A DNA stretch of 64,000 nt from positions 4,836,001-4,900,000 of the forward strand of contig NZ_OY762229.1 in assembly GCF_963665355.1 (NCBI RefSeq), written 5' to 3'. This DNA is from an uncultured Desulfobacter sp. (lineage in GTDB: Bacteria; Desulfobacterota; Desulfobacteria; Desulfobacterales; Desulfobacteraceae). Below the pieces are notes generated by a model. That model worked only from the letters and a program-made list of their open reading frames with translations. It did not search any database and was not told the DNA's origin. Made by a program: the position numbers and the translations under genes. Positions 6,229 through 40,600 of the stretch are shown piece after piece (position 1 is the first letter of the stretch; every line of letters starts with the position of its first letter).

Positions 6229-7752
6229 TCAGTGGATATCATTAAAAAACATGGCATGGTTGGATGAAAAAAAGACCGGATTTTTTTTGAACCTGGATCC
6301 CACCCCCAGCTGTTTTTTAAACTCTTTATCAATAAACGATTTCACGTTACGCCGGGTCCAGCCCAAGGGGTGTTCAAAGTTAAGATATAAAGAGAGATCG
6401 CCATGGTAAAATTCATGGGTGACAAGCCCTTTGGCATCGTCGCTGAACTTAGGCAAATTAAACACAGACAGATTCAAATAGTCAATATCAGATTTATGGG
6501 CCTCGATATAATCCAAAGTGCGGCGGGCAGCCGCCTCATCTTCATAATGGGTGCCGAAAAGCAGGTAGACAAAAGTAAGAATACCTGCGGCTTTAAGATT
6601 GGCCAGGGTCGCTGAAACAAGTTCGAGATCCGTGCCCTTTCTCATATCTTCCAGCACTCTTTGGTCGCCGGATTCAAGCCCGAGTTTGAGCATCTCACAT
6701 CCGCTGTTCTTCAACGCCAGACAAAATTGGGGGTCTGCAAAATCCTTTTCAAACCGCACAAACCCATACCATTTAAATGCACACGTCTGCCTGGAAAGTA
6801 CCCGTAGAAAAGCAGGTGTCACGGCATTATCAATGAAGTGGACCACCTCAGGATCATGATTTTCAGCCATCAGGGCAAGGTCATTCAGTACAAGTTCGGC
6901 CCGCTGGGTGGAATAGGGCCGGGTTTCAGCCTTTTCAGGACAAAAATTGCATTTGCTCCAGTAGCACCCGATGGAGCCCCTGAACGGTAAAATTTTTGCC
7001 GGTGCAATATAATCGTGGTTATCGGCAAACCCGTAATCCGGCACATAATGTTTTTTCTCAATACCGGGCTTTCCAAGCAGTGCGAGCAAAGGTGATTCGC
7101 CTTCCCCTTTGACCAGATGATCAATCAGACTCGAAAAGGGGTTCTTGAAATCAGGACGGCTCATCCAGGAAGAGATCAATCCTCCGCCCATCACAAGTGT
7201 TTTATCCGGAAAGTTGTCCCGGATCCACCCGGCCAGGGCAAAGCTGACCAGAGCCTGGTTCAGGTAGCAAAGGGAGATGCCTATCCAGGGATGACTCCAG
7301 GAGTCTATGGCCGGACGAAGCTTTTCTTCAAAATACAGGTAAAAGGGATTTTCCCTATATGATGCGGCACTGTCAAGCAACGCCTTTGAATCCACCGAAG
7401 AGAGCTGATTGTCCGAATAGTCACTCAAGCTGACTCGAAATCGCGACCGGTCCACCGATACGGCCACCAGACGGTTCAGATCATTGACACGCTGATGATA
7501 GCGGTCAACATTGGTATACAGATCAGGGTCCCTAAGATCCTTTAAATAAGCGGATCTGTTCTTCAAAGCTCTGCGGGTCCAGGAGTCTGCCGCCCTTTCT
7601 TTGCCCACAGAGTTGACCAGCCATAAAAGGCCGTCCACATTGGCGTCAACACATTTGCAGTCAATACCGTTTTCCTTTAATGCAGAAGACAAAAGTGCAA
7701 TACCGGCCGGCGGCTCACAGGGTTTGGCCACCGGAGGAAAAATCAAAAGCAT
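6229..7752 (-). CDS. B12-binding-domain-type radical SAM protein
   Basis: A 507-residue member of the large radical-SAM group with an N-terminal cobalamin-binding-like region. The protein opens with FPPVAKPCEPPAGIALLSS, typical of these proteins. The radical-SAM cluster motif is near residue 245 (CYWSKCNFC), followed by a SAM-contacting 'GLESGDQRVLEDMRKGT' region near 360. The B12-anchoring DxHxxG motif is not obvious in the N-terminal part, so cobalamin binding is doubtful. Family members carry out methylations, ring contractions and methylthiolations; the substrate cannot be told here. It precedes cinA in a possible operon. Confidence 0.82.
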   Translation of the reverse strand: MLLIFPPVAKPCEPPAGIALLSSALKENGIDCKCVDANVDGLLWLVNSVGKERAADSWTRRALKNRSAYLKDLRDPDLYTNVDRYHQRVNDLNRLVAVSVDRSRFRVSLSDYSDNQLSSVDSKALLDSAASYRENPFYLYFEEKLRPAIDSWSHPWIGISLCYLNQALVSFALAGWIRDNFPDKTLVMGGGLISSWMSRPDFKNPFSSLIDHLVKGEGESPLLALLGKPGIEKKHYVPDYGFADNHDYIAPAKILPFRGSIGCYWSKCNFCPEKAETRPYSTQRAELVLNDLALMAENHDPEVVHFIDNAVTPAFLRVLSRQTCAFKWYGFVRFEKDFADPQFCLALKNSGCEMLKLGLESGDQRVLEDMRKGTDLELVSATLANLKAAGILTFVYLLFGTHYEDEAAARRTLDYIEAHKSDIDYLNLSVFNLPKFSDDAKGLVTHEFYHGDLSLYLNFEHPLGWTRRNVKSFIDKEFKKQLGVGSRFKKNPVFFSSNHAMFFNDIH

Positions 7753-7919
7753 TCAAATCAGTCCCAGGCCGTGCTGCCCGACATGATGTCACGGGAAACA
7801 AGGCCAATAATCAATTCATTGTAAAGGTGCCGGGCACCAGTTTTTTTCAAACACTATATAAATGGCAGGTTGCAATAGCACCAGCTTTTTTTACCTTTAC
7901 GTCCGCATTCGCATGTTTT

Positions 7920-7937
7920 GTTTCTACAAATAGAAAC
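7920..7937. promoter_or_regulatory. perfect 7-4-7 palindrome upstream of trp promoter
   Basis: GTTTCTA-caaa-TAGAAAC is a perfect inverted repeat that ends 7 bases before the -35 box of the trp promoter. Its position fits a binding site for a dimeric regulator. The regulator is unknown. Confidence 0.45.
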
Positions 7938-7944
7938 ATTTTCA

Positions 7945-7973
7945 TTGACACCATTATAAAAACCATTTAATTT
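7945..7973 (+). promoter_or_regulatory. sigma-70 type promoter of the trp operon
   Basis: TTGACA at 7945-7950, a 17-base spacer, then TAATTT at 7968-7973. The expected start is near 7980, about 30 bases ahead of the leader-peptide ATG. The -35 box is a perfect consensus match. Confidence 0.7.
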
Positions 7974-8008
7974 GGCCTTTAAAAAAACTTAAACAGACAA
8001 GGGTACGC

Positions 8009-8107
8009 ATGAAAACATCAGCAACCAACCAGAAACAAATTTTATGGCACTGGCATTCCTGGCCAATATGGCAATGGCTGCTGCACCGGTCATCAAAGAT
8101 GATTTAA
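8009..8107 (+). CDS. trpL: trp operon leader peptide
   Basis: A 32-codon frame beginning ATG AAA ACA with an AAGGG Shine-Dalgarno 5 bases upstream. Residues 12-24 read LWHWHSWPIWQWL: five Trp codons (residues 13, 15, 18, 21 and 23) in 11 positions. The frame ends with TAA at 8105-8107, just before the first arm of a pause hairpin. Such tryptophan-dense leaders control attenuation: ribosome stalling at the Trp codons when charged tRNA-Trp is scarce lets the antiterminator form. Position between a promoter and trpE, with alternative hairpins following, makes the assignment strong. Confidence 0.93.
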   Translation: MKTSATNQKQILWHWHSWPIWQWLLHRSSKMI

Positions 8108-8126
8108 TTTCTTAGGACATATCGCT

Positions 8127-8197
8127 GCAGCAGCTTCTCCACATATACGGCTGTTGCGGATTCAGGGCTGACAACACCGTATGTCAGCCTTTTTTTA
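8127..8197 (+). terminator. trp attenuator (alternative RNA hairpins and terminator)
   Basis: Four segments can pair in the classical way. Segment 1 (GCAGCAG, 8127-8133) pairs with segment 2 (CTGTTGC, 8151-8157) as pause hairpin. Segment 2 in the register ACGG-c-TGTTG (8147-8156) pairs with CAACACCGT (8172-8180) as antiterminator. Segments 3 and 4 (GGCTGACA, 8166-8173, with TGTCAGCC, 8182-8189) form an 8-bp stem followed by seven T's as terminator. Lies 28 bases ahead of trpE. Confidence 0.9.
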
Positions 8198-8225
8198 TTT
8201 TAAAATTATTGTGAGGATTTTTTAA

Positions 8226-9713
8226 ATGATATTAGACAGACTGCCGGATAAAGACCAATTTATCAAACTTGCCCAATCCGCCAATGTCATACCAGTGGCC
8301 ACAAGGGTACTTGCAGACAGCGATACACCCGTATCCCTGCTGCAGAAATGTTATGAAAAGAACAAGACCTGTTTCCTGCTGGAAAGTGTGGAGGGTGGCG
8401 AGCGCTGGGGGCGTTACAGCTTTTTGGGCGTCTCCGCCTTTGGGCACATCAAAATTTTTAAGACCCATGTTCTTGTGGAAACCCGCCACAACACACAAAA
8501 GATGGATCATGACAATGATCCTTTAAACGTGATGCGGGAAGTCATCAAAGGATTTACCCCGGCTGATATCCCGGATCTGCCCAGATTCTGGAGCGGAATC
8601 ACCGGCTATTTTGCCTATGAGATGGTCTCTTTCTTTGAAAATATTGACGTGACCCTGCCCGACGGCACTCCATACGGCCATTTTATTATTCCCGAACAGA
8701 TGATCATCTTTGACAATATCAAGCAGACCCTGACCTGCCTGAATATCTGTTATCTGTCCAAAACAGATGATCCGGCCAAAGTTTATGACCAGGCCAGAAC
8801 AGATGTTGACACCCTTGTAAAAAATCTGGAAAAGCCCTTTTTCCCCAAAGAAACAGCCCCTGTGGCCGATACACAGCTTGTACCTGAAACACCGGCCCAG
8901 GAGTACATGCAAGGGGTTAAAACCATTAAGGAACATATTGTGGAGGGGGATATTTTCCAGGCCGTATACTCCCAGCCCTTTTCATGCAAAACAACGGTTG
9001 ACCCCATACTGATATACAGAGCCCAGCGCTACATCAACCCGTCACCCTACATGTTTTTCATGAATTTCACCGACCGGATCATTGCAGGGTCTTCCCCTGA
9101 AACCATGGTTCGCCTTGAAAACCGGGTGGCCACCTTGCGGCCCATTGCCGGCACAAGGCCCAGGGGGCAAAGCGAACAAACTGACCGGGCCCTAGCCGAC
9201 GACCTGCTCAACGATGAAAAGGAAAAGGCCGAACATGTCATGCTCATTGATCTTGGCCGAAACGACCTTGGCCGGGTGGCCCAGGCAGGCACTGTCCAGG
9301 TCACGGACACCATGGTCATTGAACGCTATTCCCATGTCATGCACCTGGTCTCAAACATCACCTGCGATTTAAAGGAAGATTGTGACGCCTTTGATCTTTT
9401 CAAGGCCACGTTTCCGGCAGGAACCCTGTCCGGTGCGCCTAAAATCAGGGCCATGGAGATCATTGCAAAGCTTGAGAACCGTCAAAGGGGCGTTTACGGC
9501 GGTGCTGCAGGATACATCTCCTTTACCGGCAACATGGATTTCGCCATCACCATCCGCACGGCTGTCATGGAAAACGACAGGTTGACCGTCCAGGCCGGAG
9601 CCGGCATTGTCTATGACTCTAATCCTGAAACCGAATTAAACGAATGCATCAACAAGGCTAAAAGTGTTGAAATGGCATTGAAACTTGCTCTGTCACAAAG
9701 TAAAAAAGGATAG
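8226..9713 (+). CDS. trpE: anthranilate synthase component I
   Basis: A 495-residue chorismate-utilising enzyme that, with TrpG, converts chorismate and glutamine to anthranilate. The N-terminal feedback site has the LLES motif (CFLLESVEGGERWGRYSF, near residue 55), so tryptophan inhibition is likely. The chorismate-binding domain (about 210-490) holds FMNFTDRIIAGSSPE, LRPIAGTRPRG, DLGRNDLGR and FPAGTLSGAPKIRAM. Length is normal. First structural gene after the attenuator; trpG follows 18 bases downstream. Confidence 0.98.
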   Translation: MILDRLPDKDQFIKLAQSANVIPVATRVLADSDTPVSLLQKCYEKNKTCFLLESVEGGERWGRYSFLGVSAFGHIKIFKTHVLVETRHNTQKMDHDNDPLNVMREVIKGFTPADIPDLPRFWSGITGYFAYEMVSFFENIDVTLPDGTPYGHFIIPEQMIIFDNIKQTLTCLNICYLSKTDDPAKVYDQARTDVDTLVKNLEKPFFPKETAPVADTQLVPETPAQEYMQGVKTIKEHIVEGDIFQAVYSQPFSCKTTVDPILIYRAQRYINPSPYMFFMNFTDRIIAGSSPETMVRLENRVATLRPIAGTRPRGQSEQTDRALADDLLNDEKEKAEHVMLIDLGRNDLGRVAQAGTVQVTDTMVIERYSHVMHLVSNITCDLKEDCDAFDLFKATFPAGTLSGAPKIRAMEIIAKLENRQRGVYGGAAGYISFTGNMDFAITIRTAVMENDRLTVQAGAGIVYDSNPETELNECINKAKSVEMALKLALSQSKKG

Positions 9714-9731: not shown

Positions 9732-10301
9732 ATGAAAACCGCAATAATAGACAACTACGACTCCTTTACCTTCAACCTGGTGCATTATGTTCTGAACACC
9801 GGAGCCAAGGTCGAGGTGTTCAGAAACGATAAGATCAGTGTTGAGGAACTTGAGGCCCTCGGGTTTGATGCCATTATTCTGTCCCCGGGGCCGGGCAGGC
9901 CTGAGGATGCGGGCATCTGCCTTGAACTGGTACAAAAACTGTCGGGAAAAGTCCCCATTCTCGGGGTATGCCTGGGTCACCAGACCATTGCCCAGAGTTT
10001 TGGGGGCACCATTATCCATGCCAAGTCCATTATGCACGGTAAAACATCCGTGGTGGAAGCTGATGGAAAACACATCTATTCCGGCATCAACAAGCCCTTT
10101 AACGTGATGCGCTACCACTCCCTGGCAGTCCGGGAATCGGACCTGCCCCACTGCCTTGAAGTAACGGCCAGAACCACGGACGGGGAGATCATGGGCATAA
10201 GACACAAAGAACATCCCACCCAGGGCGTGCAGTTTCACCCCGAATCTTTCATGACCACCGTGGGAAAGCGGCTGATCAGAAACTTTATCAAAGGAGCATG
10301 A
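9732..10301 (+). CDS. trpG: anthranilate synthase component II (glutamine amidotransferase)
   Basis: A 189-residue class I glutamine amidotransferase that supplies ammonia to TrpE. It starts with IIDNYDSFTFNLVHY, typical of TrpG/PabA. The nucleophile Cys is in GVCLGHQTIAQSFGG near residue 80 and the His-Glu pair in QFHPES near residue 170. It is a separate polypeptide here, not fused to trpD or trpE. Being next to trpE and trpD, it is likely dedicated to tryptophan, though a shared PabA role cannot be excluded. It ends one base before trpD. Confidence 0.97.
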   Translation: MKTAIIDNYDSFTFNLVHYVLNTGAKVEVFRNDKISVEELEALGFDAIILSPGPGRPEDAGICLELVQKLSGKVPILGVCLGHQTIAQSFGGTIIHAKSIMHGKTSVVEADGKHIYSGINKPFNVMRYHSLAVRESDLPHCLEVTARTTDGEIMGIRHKEHPTQGVQFHPESFMTTVGKRLIRNFIKGA

Positions 10302-10302
10302 T

Positions 10303-11322
10303 ATGGATTTTACAGCGTACCTGAATACCATCGTAAAACGACAGGACTTAAGCCAGGAGCAGATGTCCGAGATGATGGACGCCATTTTTTCAGGACAGGC
10401 CACAGAAAGCCAGATCGGGGCATTCATGGCGGCTCTGGCCACCAAAGGGGAGACCTTTGAGGAGTTAGCCGGTGCGGCCCGGGCCATGCGCACCAAGGCG
10501 GTGCGTGTCCAGACCCTTGCCAAAAAGGTCATTGACACCTGCGGTACAGGCGGAGACGCGTCCGGATCATTTAATATTTCCACCACGACCGCCTTTGTCA
10601 TTGCAGGCGCCGGTGTCACTGTGGCCAAGCACGGTAACCGGTCAATCACCAGCAAATGCGGTTCTGCAGATGTACTTGAACAACTTGGGGTGAACTTGAG
10701 CGTGGACCCTGAAATCGTGGAAGAAGCCATCAACGAAATCGGCATTGGTTTCATGTTTGCCCCGCTGTACCACGGATCCATGAAATACGCCGCAAAAGCC
10801 CGCACCGAATGCAAGATCAGAAGCATTTTCAACATGCTGGGACCATTGACCAACCCGGCAGCCGCCTCCTGCCAGATTTTAGGCGTATATGCTCCGGAGC
10901 TCACAGAAATGTTTGGAAAGGCACTGAACCTGCTGGGCGTGGAAAAAGCCTTTGTGGTCCACGGCCACGACGGCATGGATGAGATGACCACCACAGGTCT
11001 TACCCGGGTGACCGAACTTAACGACGGCATGATCAAGACTTATGATGTTGATCCTTTGAACTATTTTGACGAATACGCTGACCCCGAAGATCTTAAGGGG
11101 GGAGATGCAAAGCACAACGCCGCCATCACCCGGGCCATTCTGTCCGGAGGAAAGGGTCCGAAACAGGAGATTGTCCTGCTCAATGCCGGGGCCGGCCTTG
11201 TGGCTGCAGATGCCGCTCCAAGCATTGAAAAGGGAATTGAAATGGCTTTAAGATCCATTGAAACAGGAGCCGCCATGGAAAAACTGGAACAACTGGCCGC
11301 ATATACAAGGGATAACGGTTAG
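10303..11322 (+). CDS. trpD: anthranilate phosphoribosyltransferase
   Basis: A 339-residue enzyme that transfers phosphoribose from PRPP to anthranilate. Normal length. The PRPP-binding signature DTCGTGGDASGSFNIST is near residue 80, followed by the conserved KHGNRSITSKCGSADVLE (near 110). The anthranilate-binding region FMFAPLYHGSMKY and NMLGPLTNPA are also present. The start ATG is one base after the trpG stop, with GGAG of the trpG 3' end as ribosome-binding site, so the genes are tightly coupled. Confidence 0.98.
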   Translation: MDFTAYLNTIVKRQDLSQEQMSEMMDAIFSGQATESQIGAFMAALATKGETFEELAGAARAMRTKAVRVQTLAKKVIDTCGTGGDASGSFNISTTTAFVIAGAGVTVAKHGNRSITSKCGSADVLEQLGVNLSVDPEIVEEAINEIGIGFMFAPLYHGSMKYAAKARTECKIRSIFNMLGPLTNPAAASCQILGVYAPELTEMFGKALNLLGVEKAFVVHGHDGMDEMTTTGLTRVTELNDGMIKTYDVDPLNYFDEYADPEDLKGGDAKHNAAITRAILSGGKGPKQEIVLLNAGAGLVAADAAPSIEKGIEMALRSIETGAAMEKLEQLAAYTRDNG

Positions 11323-11338
11323 ACCGGGAGGATAATAC

Positions 11339-12142
11339 ATGAAAGGATTTCTCAACGTAATTGTTGATGTCAAAAAAGAGGAAATCATTCGGGCCAAAAG
11401 CAAACTTCCCCTGGCCGCCATTCGCCGTGATGCGGAGCAAACCCCGGTTCCGGCCTCTTTTGCAGATGCCATGGCCGCCTCAACCAGTGAAGCGGTGGGT
11501 ATCATTGCCGAGGTAAAAAAGGCATCGCCCTCCAAGGGAGACATCAGAACCGATATTGACGTGGCCGCCTATGCCCAAGCTTACACCAAAGGCCAGGCCC
11601 GGGCCATATCCGTACTGACGGAATCAAAATACTTTAAAGGTACTTTGCCCGACCTTGAACTGGTATGCCAAAACACTGATCTTCCGGTACTTAGAAAAGA
11701 TTTTATTTTCTCCGAATACCAGATTTACGAAGCCAAAAAAGCCGGTGCCTCTGCCGTTCTTTTAATCACCACCCTGCTTGAGCCTGCCCAGCAGGCCGAA
11801 TTGACCCATCTTACCCGAGAGCTTGGCATGGAGCCGCTGGTGGAGATCAATTCAGAGTTTGAGTTTGAGCAGGCGTATAAGGCCCAGGCCCGGGTGGTGG
11901 GCATTAACAACAGAAACCTGGCCACCCTTGAGGTGGATACAAGTGTGGCAAAACGGGTGGCAAAAATCTTCCCCGATGACATTATTCCCGTTGAAGCCTC
12001 GGGCATCTCCGGTCGATCAGGCATTGAAGCGGGCATTGAAAACCGGATTTTCAATTTCCTTGTGGGCGAAAGCATTGTCCGTTCAGATGATCCGGCCCAA
12101 TTCATAAAAACGCTCATCGGCATCAAAGAAGAGGACCAATAA
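11339..12142 (+). CDS. trpC: indole-3-glycerol-phosphate synthase
   Basis: A 267-residue (beta/alpha)8 enzyme converting CdRP to indole-3-glycerol phosphate. Family motifs are in order: IAEVKKASPSKGDI near residue 57, the SVLTESKYFKG loop near 92, LRKDFIFSEYQIYEAKKAGA near 120, VGINNRNLATLEVD near 185, and EASGISGRSGIE near 222. An AGGAGG-like Shine-Dalgarno (GGGAGGATAATAC) precedes the ATG. It is not fused to trpF, which follows 5 bases later. Confidence 0.98.
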   Translation: MKGFLNVIVDVKKEEIIRAKSKLPLAAIRRDAEQTPVPASFADAMAASTSEAVGIIAEVKKASPSKGDIRTDIDVAAYAQAYTKGQARAISVLTESKYFKGTLPDLELVCQNTDLPVLRKDFIFSEYQIYEAKKAGASAVLLITTLLEPAQQAELTHLTRELGMEPLVEINSEFEFEQAYKAQARVVGINNRNLATLEVDTSVAKRVAKIFPDDIIPVEASGISGRSGIEAGIENRIFNFLVGESIVRSDDPAQFIKTLIGIKEEDQ

Positions 12143-12147
12143 CCCCC

Positions 12148-12831
12148 ATGACGCAATTTCCCGAGCATGTATGGCAGATACCAGACCAAAGGCAAAGCGT
12201 ACTTGTCAAAATATGCGGCCTGACCCTTGTGGACAATGCCCTTGAGTGCGTGGAAGCCGGCGCGGATATCATCGGACTGGTCTTTTTTGAAAAAAGTCCC
12301 AGACATGTCAGCACAGCCCAAGCCCGGGAAATTGTCCGGGCACTTCCCAAAGGCGTGCCGGCCAGCGGTGTGTTTGTGGATGAAACCTTTGACACGATCA
12401 TGCAAACCGTTTCCGATTGCGGGCTTGAAATTGTACAACTGCACGGCGCAGAGCCCCCTGAACTTGCAGAACGCCTATCCGCCCAAAACCTTGTGGTGAC
12501 CAAAGCATTTTTTGCGGCACGGCCCCCTAAGCTTTGTGAAACAGAAAAATACCGATCCGCAGATTTTTGCCTGGCCGAATACGGCAAAGGAATACTTCCC
12601 GGGGGAAACGCCGAAACCTGGGATTACGACCAGGCCCTGGACATGGCCAAAAAAGTGCGTCTCATGCTGGCCGGAGGGCTTACCCCGGAAAATGTCGCCG
12701 ATGCGGTGTCAAGAATCCGTCCCCATGCCGCAGATGTATCCTCGGGTGTGGAAAAAGCAAAGGGCGTCAAGGATATTTCAAAGGTCAAAGCCTTTATCAG
12801 GGCTGCAAAATCTGTACGGTTGCAGCCCTGA
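12148..12831 (+). CDS. trpF: phosphoribosylanthranilate isomerase
   Basis: A 227-residue TIM-barrel enzyme that isomerises phosphoribosyl-anthranilate to CdRP. VKICGLTLVDNALECVEAGAD (near residue 20) contains the catalytic Cys; the acid Asp is in SGVFVDETFD near 72. LAGGLTPENV and DVSSGVEKAKGVKD near the end bind phosphate. It carries a 17-residue N-terminal extension before the barrel. It is the last gene of the local operon: a hairpin spans its stop codon, and trpB/trpA do not follow. Confidence 0.97.
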   Translation: MTQFPEHVWQIPDQRQSVLVKICGLTLVDNALECVEAGADIIGLVFFEKSPRHVSTAQAREIVRALPKGVPASGVFVDETFDTIMQTVSDCGLEIVQLHGAEPPELAERLSAQNLVVTKAFFAARPPKLCETEKYRSADFCLAEYGKGILPGGNAETWDYDQALDMAKKVRLMLAGGLTPENVADAVSRIRPHAADVSSGVEKAKGVKDISKVKAFIRAAKSVRLQP

Positions 12832-40282: not shown

Positions 40283-40415
40283 TTTTCGTGTCCTTTCGGT
40301 AAGCCTGCATTAATTCAATCTCCGCAGCTGATATAACGATCCCATCAATATTTTAAGGAGGGACCCATGAATAAAATCGGGATAGGACTCCCCCATCACT
40401 GAGGAGCCCTCCCAG

Positions 40416-40600
40416 GTGAGTAGCCCAAAGGAACTTCCTCTTCAGGCTCTCTCAAAACCGGACGTGAATCTCTCGACTCATCCGGCTCCTATCGTTCAGC
40501 CGTTTTTTTATACAGGACACGCCAATGAACAAAATTGCGACCTGTGCGGGTAGATTTTTGAAAATCCAACGGCCGGTAGGAAGAATATGAGCAAAAAACA
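40416..40600 (-). mobile_element. 3' end of a group II intron (maturase tail, domains V and VI)
   Basis: On the minus strand the frame reads RNFVHWRVLYKKTAER then TAG (40489-40491), like the C-terminal end of intron-encoded maturases. GAACGATAGGAGCCG leads into a 34-nt domain V at 40455-40488: GAGCCGGAT...CACGTCCGGTTT, with the AGC triad. Domain VI follows at 40416-40453: GAGAGCC pairs with GGCTACTC with one bulged A, the branch site, 7 bases from the intron end (..CTCAC). The reverse transcriptase body and the 5' intron half are missing, so this is a fragment. Confidence 0.78.

Follow-up and report, generated by a model that had tools for sequence, protein, structure and literature searches.

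A probable chain-type tryptophan attenuator beside a probable TrpR-family operator at the trp operon of an uncultured Desulfobacter

How is transcription of the trp operon adjusted to tryptophan supply in Desulfobacter, a genus of probable sulfate reducers? The question is raised by a locus in a 64-kb stretch of the genome of an uncultured Desulfobacter sp. (the whole stretch that we analysed, hereafter the window), where a very short ORF crowded with tryptophan codons lies just before trpE. The TrpE encoded there was 92–94% identical to the TrpE of records named Desulfobacter, and the genome collection includes 18 others of the same genus. Profile searches gave the gene order trpE-trpG-trpD-trpC-trpF downstream of the leader (Table 1). 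A gene divergent from the trp operon, at 6229-7752 of the window, showed weak matches to B12-binding radical SAM models, none of them over the cut-off, and a match to group II introns (RF00029, 54.6 bits) was found on the minus strand at 40415-40490. The trpB gene of this genome (L241, G000:C2:2013444-2014595) is located outside the trpEGDCF cluster, and an ORF ending about 40 nt upstream of it was judged by eye to code for a GntR/UTRA-type regulator. No Trp leader was seen at this trpB; one Trp-rich match near it was rejected as a leader, being part of a frame that overlaps the upstream gene. In three genomes the trpE alignment contained one in-frame stop (TAG in G127 and G144, TAA in G009), for which recoding, sequencing error or decay are all possible.

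Table 1. Features of the trp locus, in coordinates of the window.
Feature	Coordinates	Strand	Remarks
Palindrome TGTTTCTA-CAAA-TAGAAACA	7919..7938	.	probable TrpR-family operator (inferred)
Putative promoter	7945..7971	+	-35 TTGACA 7945-7950; -10 (a guess) TTTAAT 7966-7971; 15 nt spacer
Leader peptide ORF, 32 codons	8009..8107	+	Trp codons at 8045, 8051, 8060, 8069, 8075
Segment 0, leader codons directly after the last Trp	8076..8090	+	pairs with segment 1; ribosome-position folds
Segment 1	8121..8135	+	pairs with segment 0, or via 8125-8135 with segment 2 (8149-8159)
Segment 2	8143..8159	+	pairs with segment 1, or with segment 3 as antiterminator
Segment 3, terminator 5' arm, loop and start of 3' arm	8164..8184	+	partner of segment 2
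Segment 4 (8182-8191) and T-run (8190-8196)	8182..8196	+	3' arm and tail of the predicted intrinsic terminator
trpE, anthranilate synthase component I	8226..9713	+	best model TIGR00564, 514.6 bits (cut-off 517.7)
trpG, anthranilate synthase component II	9732..10301	+	TIGR00566, above cut-off
trpD	10303..11322	+	TIGR01245, above cut-off
trpC	11339..12142	+	NF001377, above cut-off
trpF	12148..12831	+	best model NF002298, 193.1 bits (under the cut-off of 215)

A first-pass annotation of this DNA had described a complete attenuator here, with a 32-codon leader containing five Trp codons in 11 and three hairpins, and the leader stands up well. Its translation is MKTSATNQKQILWHWHSWPIWQWLLHRSSKMI, followed by the stop codon, and an AAGGG is found upstream of its start (7999-8003). 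The clustering of Trp codons is beyond chance: when the 370 nt preceding trpE were shuffled 1000 times with dinucleotides preserved, more than three Trp in 11 codons never arose, and among the 2250 ORFs of at most 60 amino acids on both strands of the window this is the only one with at least four clustered Trp codons. Among the 15 other loci of the same genus with an upstream region, five Trp codons in 12 were found in 10 and three or four in another four, the leader being absent from only one. The Trp codons and the hairpins, on whose conservation the annotation had made its reading depend, are kept in relatives (at least three Trp in 14 of the 15). A short leader ORF rich in codons for the end product of the pathway, as a ribosome-mediated attenuator requires, is therefore present and presumably translated.

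Across the leaders of relatives it is the Trp codons that recur, much of the remaining peptide being variable. This is not what would be expected if the transcript were bound by a protein or by a tRNA (TRAP or T-box) and the Trp-rich ORF were incidental. Such control of trp does occur in other phyla, but no Rfam leader family reached its gathering score in the 64 kb, and the six Rfam matches up to E 10 in 7900-8300, all far under their gathering scores, included neither a T-box nor a trp leader. We hold this explanation to be extremely improbable.

Downstream of the Trp codons, the region 8105-8200 folds 4.85 standard deviations below its own shuffles. The three hairpins that had been proposed as pause, antiterminator and terminator (8127-8133/8151-8157, 8147-8156/8172-8180 with 8151 bulged, and 8166-8173/8182-8189) were all found in the computed folds. 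The antiterminator, 2:3, joins 8143-8156 to 8172-8184 with inner pairs reaching 8168, and excludes the terminator, 3:4, and is excluded by it. Judging from the letters alone, 8164-8191 and the T-run that follows would constitute an intrinsic terminator between the leader and trpE. The 1:2 hairpin carries no T-run in Desulfobacter.

Taken as the complete set, these three hairpins would not make a working switch. The arm of 1:2 at 8125-8135 is 47 nt downstream of the last Trp codon and 17 nt downstream of the stop codon, and a ribosome covers about 12 nt beyond its codon by the account in PMC4833913. A ribosome halted at a Trp codon cannot therefore cover this arm; segment 1 is left free for segment 2, which favours termination, so that 1:2 and the terminator would be expected under starvation as well. 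What the list of the annotation lacked is a further arm, segment 0 (GGCTGCTGCACCGGT), located inside the leader ORF, and the switch makes sense only when this arm is added.

The same geometry bears on whether the locus could be a classical three-helix attenuator, in which a ribosome waiting at a Trp codon would hide segment 1 and so let 2:3 form. That masking logic is textbook attenuation, the trpL of E. coli having a segment 1 that overlaps its Trp codons and is therefore covered by the stalled ribosome. All three helices needed for it exist in the folds. However, the 1:2 arm begins too far from the last Trp to be masked and no overlap of the trpL type was found; segment 0 follows the Trp codons inside the ORF instead, and there is one helix more. 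In addition, the fold obtained for a ribosome at the fourth or fifth Trp codon is the terminating one, and 0:1 shows partner specificity across species (see below). We therefore regard a classical arrangement as unlikely.

The effect of segment 0 was followed by folding, at equilibrium and for each ribosome position, the RNA downstream of the ribosome, which was considered available for pairing from 13 nt beyond the A-site codon onwards. When the transcript ended at 8172, 0:1 beat 1:2 by 3.5–5.5 kcal/mol with the ribosome at Trp 1–3, and 1:2 formed with the ribosome at Trp 4–5 or at the stop codon. For a transcript ending at 8185, 2:3 was favoured over keeping 1:2 at every ribosome position, by 12.8–13.7 kcal/mol at Trp 1–3 and by 0.6–2.5 kcal/mol at Trp 4–5 or the stop. 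Once the transcript reached 8192, the terminator was part of the equilibrium fold at every ribosome position and also in the absence of a ribosome, its advantage over the antiterminator amounting to 0.9–2.2 kcal/mol at Trp 1–3, 6.0 kcal/mol without ribosome and 9.7–10.6 kcal/mol at Trp 4–5 and the stop. Since the terminator is found everywhere in this last set of folds, read-through must be kinetic, set by whichever helix forms first. In these models the position of the ribosome strongly shifts the balance among the helices; equilibrium folding is not a proof of kinetic read-through. The stop codon of the leader is located 14 nt past segment 0, so that a ribosome waiting there would mask segment 0 only in part.

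The sequence of events that we propose is the following. With charged tRNA-Trp scarce, the leading ribosome would stall at an early Trp codon and leave segment 0 free to trap segment 1; segment 2, released in this way, would pair with segment 3 as the antiterminator while the terminator is still unfinished, and the polymerase would read into trpE. With tryptophan plentiful, the ribosome would run over segment 0, 1:2 would form, and the 3:4 terminator would stop transcription. The 1:2 hairpin of Desulfobacter, without a T-run, would act as a relay only.

In an alignment of 13 distinct Desulfobacter sequences, 98.4% of the cells of the 0:1 main helix, 99.3% of those of 1:2 and 100% of those of 3:4 were paired. 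The figure for 2:3 was 81.7%, its outer pairs missing in most sequences. In the covariation analysis of relatives that the first-pass annotation had suggested, covariation within the genus was not above that of shuffles, there being little variation. Because the genus varies too little, we used partner-swap tests over the whole order instead. Some loci may represent states of decay, i.e., the Desulfobacter latus-like L095, in which the start codon of the leader and the palindrome described below are both missing, L014, with a promoter and then a terminator-like hairpin but no leader, and L196, where a terminator-like hairpin is retained without a Trp leader.

Two kinds of test over the relatives further support segment 0. 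In one, the codons after the last Trp were compared with 300 synonymous versions for their pairing with the next 110 nt, and the real codons were within the best 10% in 28 of 38 leaders of the family, which are not independent because many are close relatives. Among the 10 leaders that missed this mark, four (L010, L027, L029 and L030) had been cut at the last Trp, the segment falling outside. In L010, L015, L030 and L101 the best partner was other than the 5' arm of the first hairpin. The letters that make up 0:1 differ by genus; Desulfobacula, for example, has GCTGCCG opposite CGGCAGC, and other genera have GCTGCTGC opposite GCAGCAGC.

In the other, each segment's duplex energy with the partner from the same genome was set against that with partners from other genomes, over 5000 permutations. 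From 108 regions, 99 had an ORF with at least two Trp codons (some of these surely by chance, e.g., those called in L022, L024 and L025), 52 of them had at least two T-run hairpins, and 51 were kept after dropping L094, whose second hairpin was an unrelated downstream one. In these 51 tandem attenuators, 0:1 averaged -11.8 kcal/mol with its own partner and -10.3 when swapped, and 2:3 averaged -16.5 against -13.7, with 0 of 5000 permutations reaching the real value in either case. The pairings 0:2, 0:3 and 0:4 were not better with their own partner. The control pairing 1:4 was also better than chance (10/5000), perhaps due to the likeness of segments 1 and 3. Outside the family (n = 43) the counts were 2/5000 for 0:1, 0/5000 for 2:3 and 262/5000 for 1:4, and with one region per family (n = 28) they were 18/5000, 0/5000 and 46/5000, respectively. 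The effect is one on the mean: the own partner was the single best of the 51 in two cases for 0:1 and in one for 2:3, and it was within the best quarter in 23 and 31 cases. As own 0:1 and own 2:3 both beat the permutations, the chain 0:1, 1:2, 2:3, 3:4 is the best-supported anatomy. We consider it highly probable that the operon is governed by a ribosome-mediated trp attenuator of this chain type, along with a probable repressor of the TrpR family.

How widespread such attenuators are was assessed by counting trpE upstream regions that had both a T-run hairpin and a leader in which 12 codons included at least three Trp. Both were found in 36 of 48 regions of the family, in 46 of 57 of the order's other families and in 16 of 40 from other classes of the phylum; a further two, eight and three regions, respectively, had two Trp codons only. 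The reverse-strand control gave 0/48, 2/57 and 0/40, with 0, 1 and 2 extras of the two-Trp kind. Ten of the 48 family regions were without leader plus hairpin. The identification as a ribosome-mediated trp attenuator, in a probable sulfate reducer, draws good support from the Trp-rich leaders and the hairpins that precede trpE in relatives. The class sample consisted of the upstream regions of 60 out of 191 genomes with a match, and the phylum sample of those of 40 out of 120. Left out of the tally were L066, L001-L005 (repeats of genus genomes), L031 and L109 (without a start of trpE), L173 (too short), L179 (which repeats L008), L037 (leader seen, but TrpE alignment split) and L180 (a family member in the order set, with a leader and a single T-run hairpin).

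At least two T-run hairpins were present in 38 of the 46 attenuators from other families, in nine of the 36 of the family and in nine of the 16 from other classes. Within these tandem forms a duplex is possible between the first hairpin's 3' arm plus T-run and the 5' arm of the second, as between GCAGCCTTTT and AAAAGGCTGC in L028. In most attenuators from other families of the order the 1:2 hairpin carries a T-run, and one stall may there disarm two serial terminators.

A second candidate element, absent from the first-pass annotation (which had the attenuator), adjoins the promoter. The promoter itself had been called sigma-70, and this is borne out in part: the perfect TTGACA recurs in relatives together with the palindrome, but a scan for consensus promoters listed no plus-strand site at this position, and taking TTTAAT as the -10 is a guess. 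Six bases separate the TTGACA from the end of the palindrome TGTTTCTACAAATAGAAACA, which we take to differ from the E. coli trp operator. TGTTTCTN6AGAAACA has one exact copy in the whole 5.6 Mb genome, which is this one, and in most trpE loci of the family the palindrome adjoins TTGAC. As an attenuator part the palindrome was rejected, since it is present in loci without a leader; it was retained in nine of the 10 family regions lacking leader plus hairpin, which places it outside the attenuator.

The presence of the palindrome follows that of a TrpR-family gene (PF01371), which was found in 65 of 86 genomes of the family and in six of 57 of other families, and whose product resembles solved TrpR-like proteins; in the genome of the window the match is at G000:C2:3934537-3934752. 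Twelve additional upstream regions served for the palindrome only. When one mismatch was allowed and the 450 nt before trpE were considered, the palindrome was found in 30 of 32 genomes with a TrpR-family gene and in two of 55 without it. The Fisher p of about 1e-18 for this co-occurrence is too good, as related genomes were counted separately. Outside the family the numbers were 5/6 with the gene and 0/51 without. The exceptions were G011 (74% complete) and G042 (480 contigs), with the palindrome and no TrpR-family gene, and G141 and G002, with the gene and no palindrome. The palindrome is located downstream of TTGACA in L133 and right before the trpE start in L132, positions that fit the expectation for a repressor site. 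Scanning 19 trpR loci from 18 genomes, we found a one-mismatch copy about 20 nt upstream of trpR in L181 and a weaker match in L184, and none in the other 17 or at the trpR of the window's own genome. The palindrome is probably a TrpR-family operator, to which, as we infer, the repressor would bind.

Could the repressor alone control trp, the leader and terminator being vestigial? The persistence of the palindrome in family regions without leader plus hairpin would be in line with this. Nevertheless, the leaders with at least three Trp in nearly all the other loci of the genus and the pairing maintained over the 13 sequences argue against it, as does the excess, in the other families, of leader plus hairpin (46/57) over TrpR-family genes (6/57). 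This alternative is very unlikely in our view. A repressor plus an attenuator is the probable arrangement at the trp operon, the probable second layer being the TrpR-family protein, which would act on the palindrome that precedes the -35.

The locus has in common with the trpL of E. coli and other gammaproteobacteria a Trp-rich leader, mutually exclusive hairpins and a terminator before trpE. The Trp_leader covariance model (presumably RF00513 in Rfam) gave no match at its gathering score in the window and none up to E 10 in 7900-8300. There is also a likeness to the enterobacterial his attenuator, in which A:B, C:D and E:F compete with B:C and D:E, i.e., a chain of alternative helices relays the position of the ribosome to a distant terminator, and the chain principle itself is already known from that system. 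The differences are the amino acid, the first arm, which the stalled ribosome masks in his and would leave free here, and the two helices ending in T-runs of many relatives of the window's genome. A comparative survey of attenuation, reportedly Lopatovskaya et al. 2010 (Mol Biol 44:128), may already list some such leaders.

Trp attenuators have been described for gammaproteobacteria (PMC5343134), a trp leader peptide for the alphaproteobacterium Sinorhizobium (PMC7298713) and trp attenuators with repeated UGG codons for actinobacteria (PMC1262725). In these last, antiterminator and terminator share a conserved complementary triple, a likeness to the present case that, by description only, stops at the tandem terminators, of which the part of PMC1262725 at hand makes no mention. 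For Desulfobacterota, our literature search, in which coverage of subscription papers was small, found no account of a trp attenuator. As to the repressor, E. coli trp is also under TrpR, which in Proteobacteria controls trpE and trpR, and the survey of 196 proteobacterial genomes, in the portion at hand, places TrpR regulons in gammaproteobacterial lineages and reports TrpR as absent in other classes (PMC5343134). In contrast, a TrpR-family gene with its palindrome was found here in the family of the window's genome and in a few others.

Putting the order and the phylum together, we favour, with some reservation, a picture in which a relay attenuator is used by the order and parts of the phylum; its first arm, encoded by the leader gene, would sense the stalled ribosome, and the chain of helices would disarm two serial terminators, the first terminator of Desulfobacter now being a relay. 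In part of the group a TrpR-family repressor would be added, whose operator (TGTTTCTAn4TAGAAACA) differs from that of enterobacteria, so that repressor and attenuator would act together outside the gammaproteobacteria, and lineages with only one of the two layers would exist. If this is true, a trp attenuator wired unlike the textbook case spans an order rich in sulfate reducers and reaches other classes, and the natural series from two T-run hairpins, through one with a relay and one alone, to none would show how an RNA switch evolves. The link between the palindrome and the TrpR family would provide a testable repressor-operator pair outside the gammaproteobacteria.
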